Notes under the pieces: generated by a model
Database searches by the model: none
What the model was told of the DNA's origin: nothing
What the model saw: only the letters and a program-made list of their open reading frames with translations
Position numbers and translations under genes: made by a program
Shown: positions 4,509 through 10,751 of the stretch, piece after piece
Position numbering within the stretch: position 1 is the stretch's first letter
Layout of the letters: every line of letters begins with the position of its first letter
From: Oscillospiraceae bacterium
GTDB lineage: Bacteria > Bacillota > Clostridia > Oscillospirales > Acutalibacteraceae
NCBI GenBank assembly: GCA_902796295.1
Contig: CADBOL010000237.1
Span: 1-10,751, forward strand
Reading direction: 5' to 3'
DNA: 10,751 nt

Positions 4509-5203
4509 AATATGACGGAATAACGAGAGATACGCTTTTCCTGATGGCGGATAACCGCTTCAGGAATTCAAAAGCGTTTTATGATGAGCATAAAGAGGAG
4601 CTTAAAGCCGGGATAACCGTACCTCTCAGGCAGATTGCGGGAGAGGTGGTCGGCGACCTGCTGAAGCTTGATGAAAAGATGGTTTCGGTGCCCGTGAAGA
4701 TGGTGTCGAGATTCAGACGCGATACCAGATTCACAAAGGATCAGAGCCTTTACCGCGACCATATGTGGATTATGTTTATGCGTGATAAACACGCTTACAG
4801 AGGCTATCCCGCCTTCTGGTTTGAGGTTACCGCCTCCGATTACTCAATGGGTATGGGTATGTTCATGACTCCGCCCGCGCAGATGAGGCTTTTCCGCAGA
4901 TATCTCAGAGAGAAGCCGGAGGAATTCAGAAAGGCGGCATCAAAAGCCGAAAGAAACGGCTCGTTTATTTACGGGTCTGAGTATAAGCGTCTGCCGGAGG
5001 ACTGCCCTGCGGGGCTTGAGCCCTACTACGGCAGGAAGGAATTCGGATTTATAAAATATTCCGACAGTCTCGATGATCTTAAAGATGAGAGGATAATCGA
5101 CATCGTCAGAAAGACATATAAAGATTATGCCCCGATGTTCGCCTTCCTCTTTGATATAGCAGAAGAATTCAACACATCCCGGGAAGGAGAGAATCAGCCG
5201 TGA
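4505..5203 (+). CDS. DUF2461 domain protein (TIGR02453-like)
   Basis: A 232-residue predicted cytosolic protein without signal peptide or membrane segment. It fits the DUF2461 family: an N-terminal FLMADNRFRNSKAFYDEHK (the family's L..NN..xWF..Nk pattern), then the core signature near 67-86 with Arg-rich SRFRRDTRFTKDQSLYRDH, followed by FWFEVTASDYSMGMGMF, and helices rich in Arg/Lys/Glu. No catalytic function is established for the family, and nothing in the sequence assigns one. The ATG overlaps the stop of the preceding PLP enzyme gene (ATGA, 4 bp), and its own stop overlaps the start of the following gene by 4 bp, so it is firmly embedded in the operon and probably co-translated. Confidence 0.85.
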   Translation: MKYDGITRDTLFLMADNRFRNSKAFYDEHKEELKAGITVPLRQIAGEVVGDLLKLDEKMVSVPVKMVSRFRRDTRFTKDQSLYRDHMWIMFMRDKHAYRGYPAFWFEVTASDYSMGMGMFMTPPAQMRLFRRYLREKPEEFRKAASKAERNGSFIYGSEYKRLPEDCPAGLEPYYGRKEFGFIKYSDSLDDLKDERIIDIVRKTYKDYAPMFAFLFDIAEEFNTSREGENQP

Positions 5204-6090
5204 TCACAGATATAATTGCCTTTATCATGACGTTTCTGATGTCAATAAATCTCATTGCTCCGTTTTCACCCGTTACAAAGGTTAATAAGACGGATTCGCC
5301 CGAAACACAGACTCAGGCGGATATTCTGATAATGACATATAATGTCAAGGTCAGCGGAGTGGCTCAGTATGCTCCCAAAACAAGAGCTCCCTATGTTGTT
5401 GATACCGTTATGAAAAACATGCCCGATTCCGCCGGATTCCAGGAGGTCAGCCCCGAATGGTACGGCTGGCTCAAAGAGGGGCTCAAGGGTTATTCCTGTG
5501 CGGGCGAAGCGAGAAACGGCGACGGTACAGGCGAAGCAAGCCCGATATTTTATAAATCGGATAAATACGAATGTACCGGCAGCGGCACTTTCTGGCTCTC
5601 GGAAACTCCCGACACAGCCTCAAAGGGCTGGGACGCGATGTATAACAGAGTCTGCACATACGTGATTCTCAAAGATAAGCAGACCGGTTTTACCTACGCG
5701 CATTTCAACGCCCATTTTGACCATATCGGATTTATCGCGAGAAATGAGTCCGTCTCGCTTGTATCGGCAAAAATCGCTTCTCTCTGCCCGGATATTCCCG
5801 TGGTTTTCACGGGTGATCTCAATGACAATGAGGGCGGAGTAATGTATGACCGCATTATCGAATCTGGAATGCGCGACTCGAAATACCTCGCAGAAAAAAC
5901 CATGGATATGGGTACATATCACGGCTATTCAAAGATAACCGAGCTTACGAGGACGAAGCCCATCGATTTCGTATTTGTGAATGCCTACTGTAAATCGGCA
6001 GCCTCATACGGGGTGCTCACCGAAAAATATGACGGCATTTATTCATCGGATCATCATCCGCTCAGAGTTGAGCTGACACTTGCGAACTGA
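5200..6090 (+). CDS. Membrane-anchored or secreted endonuclease/exonuclease/phosphatase (EEP) family protein
   Basis: A 296-residue protein with an N-terminal hydrophobic segment (about residues 3-22), then a short polar linker and a complete EEP fold (DNase I / exonuclease III / sphingomyelinase / inositol phosphatase superfamily), metal-dependent phosphodiester or phosphoester hydrolases. Conserved positions: Asn48 in MTYNVK, Glu82 in GFQEV, His172 in HFNAHFDH, Asp206 and Asn208 in TGDLND, Asp256 in IDFVFV, and Asp284-His285 in SSDHH. All active-site residues expected for catalysis are present. The substrate could be a nucleic acid, a phospholipid or an inositol phosphate, and the export signal points to an outside target. 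The GTG start overlaps the previous stop (GTGA) and has AAGGAGAG just upstream. It is a close paralogue of the next gene, sharing a long FW-SETPD-SKGWD block and DKQTG. Confidence 0.88.
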   Translation: MITDIIAFIMTFLMSINLIAPFSPVTKVNKTDSPETQTQADILIMTYNVKVSGVAQYAPKTRAPYVVDTVMKNMPDSAGFQEVSPEWYGWLKEGLKGYSCAGEARNGDGTGEASPIFYKSDKYECTGSGTFWLSETPDTASKGWDAMYNRVCTYVILKDKQTGFTYAHFNAHFDHIGFIARNESVSLVSAKIASLCPDIPVVFTGDLNDNEGGVMYDRIIESGMRDSKYLAEKTMDMGTYHGYSKITELTRTKPIDFVFVNAYCKSAASYGVLTEKYDGIYSSDHHPLRVELTLAN

Positions 6091-6092
6091 AC

Positions 6093-6098
6093 AGGAGG
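6093..6098 (+). promoter_or_regulatory. Ribosome binding site deciding the second EEP start
   Basis: A perfect AGGAGG lies 8 bases before ATG 6107. The frame is open back to a TTG at 6080 that overlaps the previous gene, but that codon has no Shine-Dalgarno, and the ATG start aligns with the EEP fold's first strand. Confidence 0.8.
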
Positions 6099-6106
6099 CT
6101 CTGAAT

Positions 6107-6865
6107 ATGTACAGAGTAATGTCACTTAATGTCCTCTGCTGGGGTGAGGGCGAAAACTGTATTGAAAACAGAATTCCGCTTGTTATCGAAATCATAAAGA
6201 AATACGCGCCGTCATCTTTCGGAGTTCAGGAGGCGCATAAAAAATGGATTGACGCGCTCACCGCCGGTCTGCCCGGTTATAACTATGTCGGTGTCGGCAG
6301 AGAGGACGGCAAGGAAGACGGCGAATATTCGGCCGTATTCTATCAGAAAGACAGATTCGATGCCTCCGATTACGGCAATTTCTGGATTTCGGAGACTCCG
6401 GATGTCCCCTCAAAGGGCTGGGATTCCGCCTGCACAAGAATCGCGACATATGTTAAACTCACCGATAAGCAGACGGGTGAGAGCTATGTTCATTTCAATA
6501 CTCACCTTGACCATATCGGCAGACAGGCTCAGATAAACGGCGCCAAAATGATTCAGGAAAAGGCGGCCTCCTTCGGCGGAGTGCCGGTTGTCGCGACCGG
6601 AGATTTCAATGTTGAGCAGGGCTCCGACTGCTATAACACTATGGTTAGCGCAAATATGGCAGACGCGAGATTCCTCGCTCCGGATACAGATGACTGCTAT
6701 ACGTTTCATTGGTTTAAGCCCGATGAATACCACGACACCATAGATTTCATTTTTGTTGACAAGGCAACTGTCAGACCCGTGAAATTCAAAGTTGTTAACG
6801 AAAAGGTCAACGGCAGGTTTTATTCCGACCACTACGCGGTTTACTCAGATATAGAGCTTGTTTAA
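6107..6865 (+). CDS. Cytosolic EEP family hydrolase, paralogue of the preceding gene
   Basis: A 252-residue protein starting almost directly at the first strand of the EEP fold (MYRVMSLNVL), so it has no export signal and should be cytosolic. Catalytic positions: Asn8, Glu42 in GVQEAHKKW, His133 in HFNTHLDH, Asp166 and Asn168 in TGDFNVE, Asp213 in IDFIFVD, and Asp241-His242 in YSDHY. All are intact. The middle of the protein is very similar to the previous gene product (FWISETPDVPSKGWD and TDKQTG against FWLSETPDTASKGWD and KDKQTG), which supports a tandem duplication followed by loss or gain of the signal sequence. The family is often annotated as endonuclease/exonuclease/phosphatase; the exact substrate is not predictable. 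It begins 16 bases after the previous stop and is followed 38 bases later by the ATPase-like gene. Confidence 0.88.
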   Translation: MYRVMSLNVLCWGEGENCIENRIPLVIEIIKKYAPSSFGVQEAHKKWIDALTAGLPGYNYVGVGREDGKEDGEYSAVFYQKDRFDASDYGNFWISETPDVPSKGWDSACTRIATYVKLTDKQTGESYVHFNTHLDHIGRQAQINGAKMIQEKAASFGGVPVVATGDFNVEQGSDCYNTMVSANMADARFLAPDTDDCYTFHWFKPDEYHDTIDFIFVDKATVRPVKFKVVNEKVNGRFYSDHYAVYSDIELV

Positions 6866-6891
6866 TCGGATGTCCGCCCGAAAATCCGCAC

Positions 6892-6900
6892 GGAGGTGAT
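6892..6900 (+). promoter_or_regulatory. Strong ribosome binding site of the ATPase-like gene
   Basis: GGAGGTGAT, an almost full complement to the 16S rRNA 3' end, directly precedes ATG 6904. Such a strong site suggests that the degenerate ATPase-like protein is actively translated rather than being a relic. Confidence 0.8.
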
Positions 6901-6903
6901 ACA

Positions 6904-8418
6904 ATGCCCGGTAAAGACAAAAACGGCAGAATTAAATATGATAAATTTGATTATAAAGTCGGAAGCAAGTCTGAGCTTATCGGCTTTGCCCTGGCTATTA
7001 TTCTGCTCGCTGTATCCCTTGTGCCTCTGATTCCGGATTTTCCGGCCGATCTTATGTGTATGATAAGCGCTGTGCTCTGCAGTTATCCGGTAGTCATTGA
7101 TGCCTTTTACGGCTTAAAAAAGAAAAAGCTCAAAAAGCCCCTGCTGCTTGTAATAATAATTATCGGCCTTATGATAATCGGCAGATTTTTTGATGCCGCT
7201 GTGTGTGCCGTGCTTATAAGGGCGGGAGATATGGCGGAAAAGGCGGTATCCCGCAGAGAAAAGAAGCTGCTTGCCGGCCGCAGTAAGGCGATAGCAGAAA
7301 CCGGTCACCTTGTCAGAGAAGACGGCGGCTCCGAGATTACGGATGCTTCCGATATAGCGGTAGGAAACGCTTTCGCCGTTCTTCCGGGTGAGGTTATGCC
7401 TGTTGACGCTCTCATAGAAGAGGGGAAAGGCGCTTTTGATATGTCGCTGATTACGGGTGATACAACTCCGGTATTTGCCGGGCCCGGCGACACTGTTCCG
7501 GCGGGCGCGGTAAACGGGCAGAGCACGGTTTACTGCATAGCTTACAGAGATAAAGATTCATCTGCCGCCTGCAGGATTTACAAAGCCGTTTCGGATGCGT
7601 GCGGCAAAGAATTCCCCGGCGCAAAACACAGAAAAACCGCGAAGTATTTATCCGCTCTGTTTATTATCTCGGGTATATTGATTGCGGTAATCGGCAGCAT
7701 TGTGACAGGCAGTCCCTTTGATTATATCTGCAGAGGGCTCGGCGTGTGCGCTCTGTGTTTTGCCGGCTCCGCTCTTTCGGGGTCACGCCTTATTGCTGTT
7801 TCTTCTCTGATTGACACCGCCGGAGCGGGCGCGGTGCTGACCTCTCCCGAAGGCATGGGCAAGCTGATAAAATCAAAGGTGATTCTGCTGTGTGAAGAGG
7901 TTTTTGCGAAGCGCTCACCTGAAATCAAGTCAGCGGTCGCTCTGTTTAAGAATTACGGAGTCAGAGAGACAGACGTGGTGATTCCCGAGGGTGAAACGGC
8001 AAAGGCCGCTTTCGCAAAGCAGTGCGGAATCGACAGAGTCTTCAGCGGCGATGAGCTGAGCATAAAAACCGATCAGAAGCTTATAATTGACAGCAGCGAA
8101 ATGACAGTCAGCGAAAGATATGCCGCCGACGGTGATTTCAAGGCGGTTTACAATTATCTCGGATTTGATAAAGAAGCGGATGCCGTATTCACAGGCCCCA
8201 ATCTGCTCAGGGCGGCAGGCGTTATAAGAAAATGCCTCAGATACCGCGGCGTGATGCGTATTTTTACATTATTCTTTGCCGCTCTCAAGATTGCCGCGGC
8301 GGTGCTTGCAGGGCTCGGAATAATCCCTGTGTGGGTATCCTTTGCATCCGACATTGCAATCCTTGCTTTCGCGTTTATCGCCTGCCTCGGCGCAGGGAAA
8401 ACGGCAAACGGAAAATAA
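6904..8418 (+). CDS. Degenerate P1B-type (heavy-metal) ATPase-like membrane protein, probable pseudo-ATPase
   Basis: A 504-residue integral membrane protein with the layout of a Zn/Cd/Cu-type P1B ATPase but without its catalytic core. Hydrophobic segments lie near 24-43, 47-67, 79-93, 94-108, 246-268, 271-297, 453-473 and 475-497, matching the eight helices of the family. The actuator domain (about 110-235) is clear: VGNAFAVLPGEVMPVDAL, DMSLITGDTTP, GDTVPAGAVNG; the essential TGE is TGD (Asp186). The CPC metal motif is replaced by Gly-Val-Cys (280-282). Where FDKTGTLT should stand the sequence is LCEEVFAK (329-336), so the phosphorylated Asp appears to be Cys330. The region to the last helix pair is only about 120 residues, lacks the HP motif and GDGxND hinge, and has little nucleotide-binding domain. 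Residues 375-387 and 425-450 still resemble the GID and EADVVL segments. There are no stops or frameshifts, so it is not an obvious pseudogene. Function is unknown: perhaps a regulatory or metal-sensing scaffold. Confidence 0.8.
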   Translation: MPGKDKNGRIKYDKFDYKVGSKSELIGFALAIILLAVSLVPLIPDFPADLMCMISAVLCSYPVVIDAFYGLKKKKLKKPLLLVIIIIGLMIIGRFFDAAVCAVLIRAGDMAEKAVSRREKKLLAGRSKAIAETGHLVREDGGSEITDASDIAVGNAFAVLPGEVMPVDALIEEGKGAFDMSLITGDTTPVFAGPGDTVPAGAVNGQSTVYCIAYRDKDSSAACRIYKAVSDACGKEFPGAKHRKTAKYLSALFIISGILIAVIGSIVTGSPFDYICRGLGVCALCFAGSALSGSRLIAVSSLIDTAGAGAVLTSPEGMGKLIKSKVILLCEEVFAKRSPEIKSAVALFKNYGVRETDVVIPEGETAKAAFAKQCGIDRVFSGDELSIKTDQKLIIDSSEMTVSERYAADGDFKAVYNYLGFDKEADAVFTGPNLLRAAGVIRKCLRYRGVMRIFTLFFAALKIAAAVLAGLGIIPVWVSFASDIAILAFAFIACLGAGKTANGK

Positions 8419-8422
8419 TAAA

Positions 8423-8448
8423 AAGGGCAGGCTGTCCGGCTTGCCCTT
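8423..8448. terminator. Hairpin after the ATPase-like gene (imperfect terminator)
   Basis: Arms 8423-8432 and 8439-8448 form a 10-bp stem (one G-U pair) with a 6-base loop, starting five bases after the stop codon. On the plus strand it is followed by AAAAATATTT rather than a U-run, so it is a poor Rho-independent terminator in the gene direction. On the minus strand it is followed by TTTTTATTATTTT, a better tract. It may act as partial terminator or 3'-end stabiliser. Confidence 0.55.
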
Positions 8449-8453
8449 AAAAA

Positions 8454-8482
8454 TATTTGAAAAATTCAAAATAATTCAAATA
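8454..8482. promoter_or_regulatory. TATTTGAA/TTCAAATA repeat cluster upstream of the sigma factor gene
   Basis: TATTTGAA at 8454-8461 is exactly inverted as TTCAAATA at 8475-8482, and a third half-site AATTCAAA at 8463-8470 repeats directly at 8473-8480, exactly one helical turn (10 bp) apart. The arrangement, in the only gap between the ATPase-like gene and the sigma operon, suggests a protein-binding site. I could not find a convincing -35/-10 pair here; TTGAAA at 8457-8462 is a possible -35 box. Confidence 0.35.
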
Positions 8483-8513
8483 CTTTTTGTCTTTTTAACG
8501 TTATGTTTACCGG

Positions 8514-8522
8514 AGGAGGTGA
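8514..8522 (+). promoter_or_regulatory. Perfect Shine-Dalgarno of the sigma factor gene
   Basis: AGGAGGTGA is a full 9-base complement of the 16S rRNA 3' end, four bases before ATG 8527. It rules out the in-frame ATG at 8503, which lies upstream of this site and has no ribosome binding site of its own. Confidence 0.85.
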
Positions 8523-8526
8523 GAGA

Positions 8527-9066
8527 ATGACAAATCACGAAATCGATAAACTTATGAAAAGAATTGCCCTTGGAGATATGGCTGCTCTTGAGGAGCTTTA
8601 CAGAAACATGAGCAAGCCCGTGTATTTCTATGCGCTGCGCCTTGTCGGAGATCCCGTTGCCGCCGAGGATGTGATGCAGGATACATTTGTCTCCGTTATG
8701 CGCTCTTCAGGCACTTACAACGCAGAGGAAAAAGGTAAGGCGTGGCTGTTTACGATAGCGAAAAACAAGGCGGCGGATATAATCAGAAAGCGCTCGGACC
8801 TTGTTTCCGGCGGCGAGATTGAGGATGTTGCCGACAGGAGAGATTTCACAACACAGTCCGATAACAGCATCGCGGTCACAAATCTGCTCAATCAGCTGAG
8901 CAAAAAAGAACGTGATATTGTCACGCTGAGGCTTTTCGGCGATATGACTCTCACTCAGGTTTCAAAGGAGCTTGATATTCCCAAAGGCACGGTGTTCTGG
9001 ACTTACAGCAACGCCGTGAAAAAGCTCCGCAGGTATTATACGGGAGGCGAAAAGGATGAAAAGTAA
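8527..9066 (+). CDS. ECF-type RNA polymerase sigma factor
   Basis: A 179-residue sigma-70 family factor of the extracytoplasmic function type, with only regions 2 and 4. Region 2 (about 20-90) shows ALEELYRNMSKPVYFYALRL and the core-binding and -10 segment AAEDVMQDTFVSV, then GKAWLFTIAKNKAADIIRK. Region 4 (about 115-170) shows LSKKERDIVTLRLFGDMTLT and the helix-turn-helix VSKELDIPKGTVFWTYSNAVKKLRRY. The recognition helix has FWTYS in place of the common KSRLH, as in some clostridial ECF groups. It would direct RNA polymerase to stress or envelope genes, probably including its own operon. It overlaps the next gene by 11 bp, the usual linkage to an anti-sigma factor. Strong translation is predicted from its perfect Shine-Dalgarno. 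Confidence 0.93.
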   Translation: MTNHEIDKLMKRIALGDMAALEELYRNMSKPVYFYALRLVGDPVAAEDVMQDTFVSVMRSSGTYNAEEKGKAWLFTIAKNKAADIIRKRSDLVSGGEIEDVADRRDFTTQSDNSIAVTNLLNQLSKKERDIVTLRLFGDMTLTQVSKELDIPKGTVFWTYSNAVKKLRRYYTGGEKDEK

Positions 9067-10141
9067 ATTTGAAAAAGAGCTAAGAGAAAAAGCATATTCC
9101 GCAGTTCCCGACGGATGGGATGAGGTAGAGAAAAAGGCAAAGGTTTTTGAGCCCTCGGGAATAATCAATAAGGCAAAGAGCAGCCCGGTTAAAACCATTG
9201 CCGCCGCTGCCGCGGCCGTTGCCGTTGTTATCGGCGCCGGTTTTGCAATAAAGGCGATGCAGAGAAGCCCGGTTCCCTATGAGGCGGATGATATTGAAAC
9301 AATTCAGGCCGCAGTGACTGAATCCGGAGAGCCGGCTGACGAATCCGCGGCGTCAGACAGTGAACAGACAGCCCCCGCAGCGTCGGAAGGTGATGCGGAA
9401 GTATTCGATGCTGCTGAAACAGTTTCCGAAACAACGTCGAAAAAAACGAATCTGCTCTCCGCGGAAGATACTTCGGCAGATAAAAAGGACAAAACGGAAA
9501 AATCCGCAAAAGAGCAAAAGAATACCAAAGCCGGAAATAAGGACTCAACTTCAGCCCTCGCCGAGAGAAAGACGTCATCGGCGGATTCTTTGAACGCGCA
9601 GGCTCAGACGGCAGCTGAAACCACCACGGCAGCCCCGGAAACGGCAGTATCAATGAACTATACATACGTTATCAACAGCGGTAAATATAAGGATTACTGT
9701 CCGGGCAAGGTTATCGAAAAAGACAGGGTCGGCGAAAAAATCGGGTCGGTAACCGTTACGGGTTACTGGGAAGGTTTCGGCGCCGTAAGTGAGAATAAGA
9801 CACAAAGAGAAACACTCTCGGCCGATGTGTATCAGATTGAAGGCGTTTCCGATGATGTCGCTGTCTGTCTTAAATTCAATGATAAGGGAGACGCGCTGAC
9901 CACAAATCATTATTATGTTGTGATAAACCCGAAAGCCGACTATTCTCCGGTCAGAGAGTATTGTATCGCGGTGCCAAATACCCGGATTGCCGAGGATAAT
10001 ACGGATAAAAATGTACCCACCGCTAGCAATCCCTATTATCCCGAGCAGTCAAAAGAAGCGGAGCTCACGCGCGGCAAAACCGAGACCGTGACGGCGGTAA
10101 CAAGCAAAGCGCATACCGAAACACAGACCGTTTCCGGATAA
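9056..10141 (+). CDS. Single-pass membrane protein, probable anti-sigma factor
   Basis: A 361-residue protein with an N-terminal cytoplasmic part of about 45 residues (charged, helical, including VPDGWDEVEKKAK), one Ala-rich membrane helix (about 46-66), a low-complexity Ser/Thr/Ala/Glu/Lys linker (about 75-198), an extracellular domain (about 199-315) with EKIGSVTVTGYWEGFG, SADVYQIEGVSDDVAVCLKF and NHYYVVINP, and a Thr-rich tail. The overlap with the sigma gene and the topology (short cytosolic part, single helix, outer domain) support an anti-sigma role, but no zinc-finger (HxxxCxxC) motif is present, so this is inferred from position and layout. The outer domain resembles the envelope domains of many unnamed Ruminococcaceae anti-sigma-like proteins. 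ATG 9056 has GGGAGG at 9042-9047, eight bases upstream. Two Cys (215 and 303) may form a disulfide outside the cell. Confidence 0.72.
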   Translation: MKSKFEKELREKAYSAVPDGWDEVEKKAKVFEPSGIINKAKSSPVKTIAAAAAAVAVVIGAGFAIKAMQRSPVPYEADDIETIQAAVTESGEPADESAASDSEQTAPAASEGDAEVFDAAETVSETTSKKTNLLSAEDTSADKKDKTEKSAKEQKNTKAGNKDSTSALAERKTSSADSLNAQAQTAAETTTAAPETAVSMNYTYVINSGKYKDYCPGKVIEKDRVGEKIGSVTVTGYWEGFGAVSENKTQRETLSADVYQIEGVSDDVAVCLKFNDKGDALTTNHYYVVINPKADYSPVREYCIAVPNTRIAEDNTDKNVPTASNPYYPEQSKEAELTRGKTETVTAVTSKAHTETQTVSG

Positions 10142-10152
10142 GGAGACAGACT

Positions 10153-10751
10153 ATGAAAAAGATTATTATAATTATCATAGCGGTTCTGCTTGCGGGTATT
10201 ATCATCCCCGTACCCAAAACATATGCGGACGGTACAAAATCATACAGCGCGCTCGCTTACAAAATCGTAAAATGGAACAGACCTTTTTACAAGAATCTGA
10301 TGTTCACTCAGACGGAGGTTTACAAGTTCCCCCATTCGCTTAAATCCGTTGACGAACTCTGGGAGGGAATGGAGATAGACCCCGCCGTCAGTCTGATGAC
10401 AGGCACGGCGGAAATAACGGATGACGGGCGGATTCTTTTAAGAATAACCGAAGACACCGGCAGCTTCAAAGAGGGAGACACCGCCGATATTACGGATTAT
10501 ACGGATTTTGAAGTCAAAGACGGCGATATACTAAGTGTGGAGTATCTGCCGGAGCTTTATTCAAAGGGGCCGATGATTTCGGAAATCGTTGATATCAAAA
10601 GGGTTTCAGAAGCCGGAACCGATAAGAAAGCGACGGAAACCGAATCCGTTAATGCAGATGAAGGAACAGACCCGGAGACCTGTGAAGAAAATCCTTCTTC
10701 AACAAGTATGCCGTCAACAGCCGTTGTTACAAATCCGTATAAATTCAATAC
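10153..10751 (+). CDS. Membrane-anchored or secreted protein of unknown function, 3' end outside the window
   Basis: The frame is open from ATG 10153 to the right edge with no stop; 199 residues are visible. AAGGAG at 10140-10145, overlapping the previous stop, gives a good ribosome binding site 7 bases upstream. The N-terminus is MKK followed by a run of Ile and other hydrophobic residues to about position 20, then PVPKTYADGTKSYSALAYKI: a signal peptide or anchor. The motifs DGTKSYSALAYKIVKWNRP and KSVDELWEGM recall a small unnamed family of exported proteins common in gut Clostridia near similar sigma/anti-sigma genes; I know of no function for it. From about residue 150 it becomes Thr/Ser/Glu-rich like the linker of the preceding protein. 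It is third in the sigma operon and may be an accessory sensor or target of the same signalling system. Confidence 0.7.
   Translation, partial: MKKIIIIIIAVLLAGIIIPVPKTYADGTKSYSALAYKIVKWNRPFYKNLMFTQTEVYKFPHSLKSVDELWEGMEIDPAVSLMTGTAEITDDGRILLRITEDTGSFKEGDTADITDYTDFEVKDGDILSVEYLPELYSKGPMISEIVDIKRVSEAGTDKKATETESVNADEGTDPETCEENPSSTSMPSTAVVTNPYKFN

Follow-up and report, generated by a model that had tools for sequence, protein, structure and literature searches.

P-type pumps are treated as machines with domains that work only together, and in the P1B pumps the MA-MB platform lies at the cytosolic membrane surface. Human TMEM94/ERMA has a P-type fold in which ATPase activity was not detected (PMC12134183); its status is disputed, passages of a further paper recording the replacement of its GDGVND motif and arguing that it is a Mg ATPase (PMC13322241). 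For the apicomplexan cyclase PfGCbeta, parts of PMC6592433 describe a degenerate ATPase domain and discuss regulation of the cyclase by the P4-ATPase domain. The original prediction for the gene described here held that a P-type pseudo-ATPase of this kind was not known to have been described. The precedents of TMEM94 and PfGCbeta make that too strong; a bacterial P1B case did not appear among the matches listed from open-licence PMC papers, judged by titles and the beginnings of abstracts. No open-licence PMC paper was found that joins a P-type ATPase with a pseudo-ATPase or pseudoenzyme, and no such class is named in excerpts of a review (PMC10654040).

The window, the whole stretch of 10,751 nucleotides that was analysed, comes from an Oscillospiraceae bacterium and contains on its forward strand (6904-8418) an unbroken 504-codon gene whose frame is open from start to end. 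Judged by its sequence, the gene is a descendant of a P1B metal ATPase in which the catalytic machinery has been lost. Its features, and the two genes ahead of it, are as follows.

5200..6090, + strand: EEP-family hydrolase 1 (PF03372) with a hydrophobic N-terminus; Pfam score 24.9 bits against a cut-off of 24.5; L032 and L033 have it at the equivalent position
6107..6865, + strand: EEP-family hydrolase 2 (PF03372); Pfam score 33.6 bits for the searched span 6080-6862; gap of 38 bp to the pseudo-ATPase gene
6892..6896, + strand: Shine-Dalgarno sequence GGAGG, 7 nt 5' of the ATG, from the sequence
6904..8418, + strand: predicted P1B-ATPase-derived pseudo-ATPase gene, 504 aa; open frame, PF00122 only, motif-less relatives, model pLDDT 85.1
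6937..6975, + strand: N-terminal motif YDKFDYKVGSKSE at residues 12-24, confined to the pseudo clade (8/8 pseudo, 0/12 active orthologues)
6976..7128, + strand: helices MA-MB, residues 25-75; identity above that of active pumps, helices 22-38 and 45-72 in the model
7291..7605, + strand: actuator domain, residues 130-234, with TGE changed to TGD
7759..7767, + strand: alignment column of the CPC metal site, occupied by F-A-G at residues 286-288 (alignment and SsZntA mapping)
7825..8205, + strand: P-domain remnant, residues 308-434, under the weakest constraint
7888..7893, + strand: junction L329/C330, the point at which DKTGT and the N domain (~110 residues) are absent (from alignment with active orthologues and the relatives of 603-621 aa)
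8287..8352, + strand: TM5 Lys462 to TM6 Asp483, equivalents of SsZntA K693 and D714 (8/8 pseudo, 12/12 active)

The encoded protein is without DKTGT, CPC, TGE, HP and GDGxND, and the alignment shows the nucleotide-binding domain to be deleted. PF00122 is its sole Pfam domain match, and with NCBIfam TIGR01525 it scores 98.9 bits, below the cut-off of 346.25 (the active orthologue L078 scores 484.5 bits). The P1B layout of MA-MB, six helices and actuator domain is present in the protein, and its AlphaFold model is a P1B scaffold without the N domain and with the full eight-helix membrane domain (pLDDT 85.1, below 50 for residues 1-5 and 8-16). An intact 504-codon gene for a P1B scaffold without its catalytic core, as originally predicted, is thus borne out by the frame, the motifs and the absent nucleotide-binding domain; an unrelated fold was looked for, and the predicted structure was the P1B scaffold. 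By the established mechanism, the P-type cycle cannot run without the phosphorylatable Asp, the nucleotide domain, GDGxND and the metal thiols, and catalytic activity has presumably been lost.

Nine relatives besides the window protein are without DKTGT, CPC and GDGxND. In the protein search these were the 9 of 108 matches (P0002-P0010) that list an actuator domain without a HAD domain, and the profile search of the same database at E 1e-50 returned the identical nine among its 17 matches and no extra member; in both searches, scoring was limited to the 7996 candidates with most words in common. A lone altered copy among DKTGT homologues had been looked for, and instead the eight of these ten proteins that entered the tree form one clade. 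The short forms P0002-P0005 (498-504 aa) resemble the window protein in that the N domain is gone. At 418 aa, P0006 is a fifth short relative; it is similar to P0005 but lacks about 80 internal residues, and it sits on a 1586-base contig, so that the internal gap may be an assembly effect. In the long forms P0007-P0010 (603-621 aa), the motifs are dead and the N-domain region is still there, and the model of P0008 (pLDDT 88.7) has strands and helices across it. All four long forms keep TGE, have CPS in place of CPC, and have lost the phosphorylated Asp and GDGxND; TGD is found in 4/4 short forms. P0002 (97% identical) and P0006 were left out of the alignments and the tree. The motif scan reports an HP match in P0009 that sits in DGYHPDE, outside the N-domain motif, and its TGE pattern misses P0009 and P0010, both of which carry TGE in the alignment.

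The named records are metagenome assemblies, which would be in line with an assembly or sequencing artefact. However, the short forms, at 58-97% identity, and the long forms, at about 32%, come from several sources, so that an assembly error was rejected and an artefact of any sort has a negligible probability. Beyond the known members, none of comparable strength was found in 200 genomes of the bacterial family (next best 123.8 bits) or in 394 genomes of the order (next best 330.5 bits, the active gene of G488). Of the 59 loci given for the family, order and own-genome searches, 58 have both DKTG and GDGxND, and L002, cut by its contig, has DKTG. A pattern scan of the genome contigs for the N-terminus gave 83 pattern matches that came down to three loci, the patterns being drawn from the pseudo clade's own N-terminus so that the scan favours this clade. 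A second P-type-ATPase-like family was also observed (L090, 3596-5941 on the minus strand, 781 aa; own-genome copy L116, G000:C261). It matches CopA and TIGR01525 weakly, DKTG is absent from its eight aligned members, and it has matches in 56 of 60 genomes of the bacterial family at 1e-20; it is possibly a widespread pseudo-ATPase, and differs from the window gene in architecture.

Within the genus (45 genomes), the pseudo form occurs in four (G000, G236, G226 and G241), a small group of rumen-type Clostridia, and an active orthologue in 12; the remaining 29, in a sample where many genomes are incomplete, have weaker matches only, two having none at 1e-20. DKTGT, CPC, TGE, HP and GDGxND are present in 12/12 active orthologues, and DKTGT is missing in 8/8 pseudo proteins. 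In a tree of 27 rows, the eight pseudo proteins form one clade (100/100) inside the 12 active orthologues of the same genus, with the active L078 as its sister (98/96). The stems are long (0.69 for all pseudo proteins, 1.16 for the short forms) and the branches within the short clade are 0.06-0.29, pointing to a burst of change with slower evolution afterwards. The stages from active pump through motif-dead full-length protein to N-domain-less protein appear all to persist in one genus. A MraY-like gene (by eye) adjoins the active gene or lies one gene off in 12/12 loci, and in L033 it lies two genes downstream of the pseudo gene, with the EEP pair upstream. Near one active P1B gene, L081 (6107-9523) encodes a 1138-aa protein that by eye resembles a Cas12a nuclease.

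Tree, synteny and alignments show the gene to be the vertically inherited orthologue of an ordinary P1B (Zn/Cd-type) ATPase. In an ancestor shared by a few species of a single clostridial genus, it came to stand directly behind an EEP hydrolase pair, probably through a rearrangement to which the MraY-like and EEP synteny and the genes following EEP2 elsewhere point, and it lost its catalytic residues; in one branch the N domain was lost as well, presumably at a later step.

Selection on the core-less protein had been predicted, and signs of it were found. For the window and L032, the one short-form pair with DNA, dN/dS inputs are 0.322/2.322 (NG86), 0.343/1.673 (LWL85) and 0.324/2.624 (ML), giving roughly 0.12-0.21, a ratio that is rough because dS is near saturation; a value near 1 had been looked for. 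The long-form pair L033-L034 gives 0.498/1.955 (NG86). Window and L032 differ at 135, 126 and 297 first, second and third positions of 498 codons. Neutral simulation to a pairwise difference of 0.41 produced 16.6 stops on average over both copies, and 0/200 runs per setting were free of stops; the observed pair has zero stops at a difference of 0.37. Judged from these codon data, the pseudo-ATPase gene shows purifying selection and would count as a pseudoenzyme, combining homology to an enzyme, lost catalytic residues and such selection. Relative to EEP2, dN is 3.15 for the short pair, 3.17 for the long pair and 1.92-3.18 for six active-active pairs, which places the present constraint near the loose end of the range of working pumps; it is 3.44-5.95 for 16 pseudo-active pairs and 4.55-6.55 for four short-long pairs. 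The pseudo gene evolves faster than its surroundings, with a window-L032 identity of 0.58 against 0.81-0.89 for four neighbours.

The gene might instead be a slowly decaying pseudogene of a redundant pump, still open by chance, with the N-terminal part held trivially, for example by translation coupling. Local decay does occur: the pseudo-ATPase of L033 (G241), one of the four genomes, has an in-frame TGA at codon 155 (10430-10432) with the rest open. The internal gap in P0006, the stepwise loss of domains, the presence of the pseudo form in only 4 of 45 genus genomes, and other DKTGT P1B genes in G000, G236 and G241 that could cover the metal function would also fit decay. P0007, highly similar to the L033 protein, is open, but database proteins are open by construction, so that openness is tested by the four genomes with DNA only. 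Among these, the window and L032 frames are open at 58% identity, and that of L034 is open up to the contig end, which cuts it so that comparisons with it cover 459-489 codons. These open frames, the stops in every simulation run, the low dN/dS and a new N-terminal motif kept across the pseudo clade argue against decay, which we consider improbable.

The constraint is distributed unusually along the protein. Mean pairwise identity (eight pseudo versus 12 active proteins) is 0.94 versus 0.31 in the N-terminus (12-24), 0.67 versus 0.40 in MA-MB, 0.46 versus 0.61 in M1-M2, 0.53 versus 0.56 in the actuator, 0.42 versus 0.62 in M3-M4, 0.28 versus 0.58 in the P remnant and 0.40 versus 0.64 in M5-M6; the two sets differ in overall divergence, and it is the pattern along the protein, not the single values, that counts. 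Constraint has shifted: the N-terminal motif and MA-MB are the best kept and the P remnant the least, opposite to what the active pumps show. The motif YDKFxYxVGSKSE is present in 8/8 pseudo proteins and 0/12 active orthologues, and each of the four pseudo genomes has a single match to a DNA pattern for the first part of the motif, the other 41 genus genomes having none. The DNA under the YDKF motif, TATGATAAATT (window 6937-6947 and equivalents), is identical in 4/4 genomes, third positions included. The low model confidence of much of the N-terminal region would suit a linear motif that becomes folded on binding a partner.

A transport protein that has become passive, its membrane core conducting or binding some other ion by way of acidic residues that are still there and of the Lys/Asp pair, would be in keeping with the complete eight-helix membrane domain of the model and with the membrane residues, whose roles in SsZntA are taken from parts of PMC6305203 and PMC8880997. 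The equivalents of K693 and D714, K462 and D483 in the window protein, are kept in 20/20 proteins (8 pseudo and 12 active); the E202 column holds D in short and Q in long forms, and the E214 column D in 7/8 pseudo proteins and E in 1/8. In this mapping the E184 column looks one-shifted around a gap and D348 lies where the short forms have a gap, so that neither is drawn on here, and the ORF taken for L122 does not align and was left uncounted. However, M1-M2, M3-M4 and M5-M6 are less conserved in the eight pseudo than in the 12 active proteins, the excess conservation lying in the N-terminus and MA-MB, and the Lys/Asp pair may serve folding alone, so that we regard a passive conduit as rather unlikely.

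The membrane thiols for metal were lost stepwise, both in the four short forms and one of two in the four long forms. Cys and His are absent from the N-terminus in 8/8 pseudo proteins, with at least two Cys in 10/12 active ones; the N-terminus of the sister L078 has one Cys only and two His. Sensing of metal through the old sites, as originally suggested, therefore does not hold up well: both transmembrane-site Cys of the window protein are gone, and with these ligands lost it is unlikely. A broader role in metal regulation or sensing, for example by pairing with the cell's true P1B ATPase, would draw on the P1B ancestry and on the DKTGT P1B paralogues in G241, G236 and, as pieces at contig ends, G000. 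The same lost ligands stand against it, as do the neighbours, since no metal gene was seen beside the pseudo-ATPase in the L032-L034 loci, where the EEP genes are the constant neighbours. The chance of such a role appears small.

EEP2 is separated from the pseudo-ATPase gene by 38, 28, 19 and 28 bp in the 4/4 pseudo genomes. No terminator-like site was found on the + strand in 5000-9000, and a promoter scan gave no more sites than in shuffles. EEP-family matches occur in 45/45 genus genomes, a set independent of the pseudo-ATPase: in G220, G233, G214 and G228 the gene after EEP2 is something else, and L113 and L115 have EEP2 with the pseudo-ATPase absent. The EEP genes thus do not need the pseudo-ATPase. 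In L110, L114 and elsewhere in the genus they also stand in tandem, two or three together. Downstream, the surroundings vary, with sigma factor genes in the window and Suf-like genes (by eye) in L032; directly downstream, at 8503-10141, the window has a sigma-70-family gene and then a gene whose product contains a single hydrophobic segment and may, by eye, be an anti-sigma factor, both absent in L032. A HAD-type gene (by eye) lies at 1059-1709 of the window and is present in L033 too. Trans-complementation by a separate N-domain gene was considered, and none was recognised by eye among the window ORFs; a defence system was set aside, PADLOC giving no match for the pseudo-ATPase or either EEP protein.

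Descent from a P1B ATPase, catalytic loss and selection are, taken together, probable. That the pump was rebuilt into an ATP-independent membrane hub, with selection moved to the N-terminal motif and MA-MB for binding a new partner, possibly the EEP hydrolases, stands at about even chances. As a mechanism we tentatively propose an ATP-independent, pump-derived membrane adaptor, because conservation is highest in the parts that P1B pumps have at the cytosolic surface of the membrane. The strictly conserved and probably disordered N-terminal motif would form a partner-binding surface with the MA-MB pair; the core would be held folded by the actuator domain together with the pair of TM5 Lys and TM6 Asp, and the P-domain remnant would be a passive cap. 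Expression of the pseudo-ATPase would be coupled to EEP1-EEP2, and the EEP pair is the likeliest putative partner, a guess from the operon only. An old ATP-driven pump thus seems to have been reused for a new job that needs no ATP. This natural series, which leads from a pump to a protein without the N domain and has its controls in the active sister genes, shows which parts of the scaffold are reusable and offers a direct test of the roles of the MA-MB platform and actuator domain without ATP. Such proteins can be mistaken for metal pumps when annotation relies on nothing but the actuator domain.

Among known systems, the ZntA/CadA pumps (P1B-2, Zn/Cd) and the direct orthologues L078-L089 resemble the window protein in tree position, in the eight-helix layout with MA-MB, in the actuator domain and in TM5 Lys and TM6 Asp. 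It differs from both in the absence of DKTGT, CPC, TGE, GDGxND and the N domain, in its new N-terminal motif and in its upstream genes. TMEM94/ERMA has a P-type fold without TGES; it is, however, a eukaryotic protein of ten helices that keeps an N-like domain and an Asp (DKQGI), and it is absent among the 50 matches listed for the window protein's model. PfGCbeta is P4-type and fused to a cyclase, whereas the window protein is of P1B type, stands alone and lacks the N domain. With TMEM94 and the degenerate cyclase ATPase domains, the kind is already known; a bacterial, N-domain-less form within a stepwise series is new.
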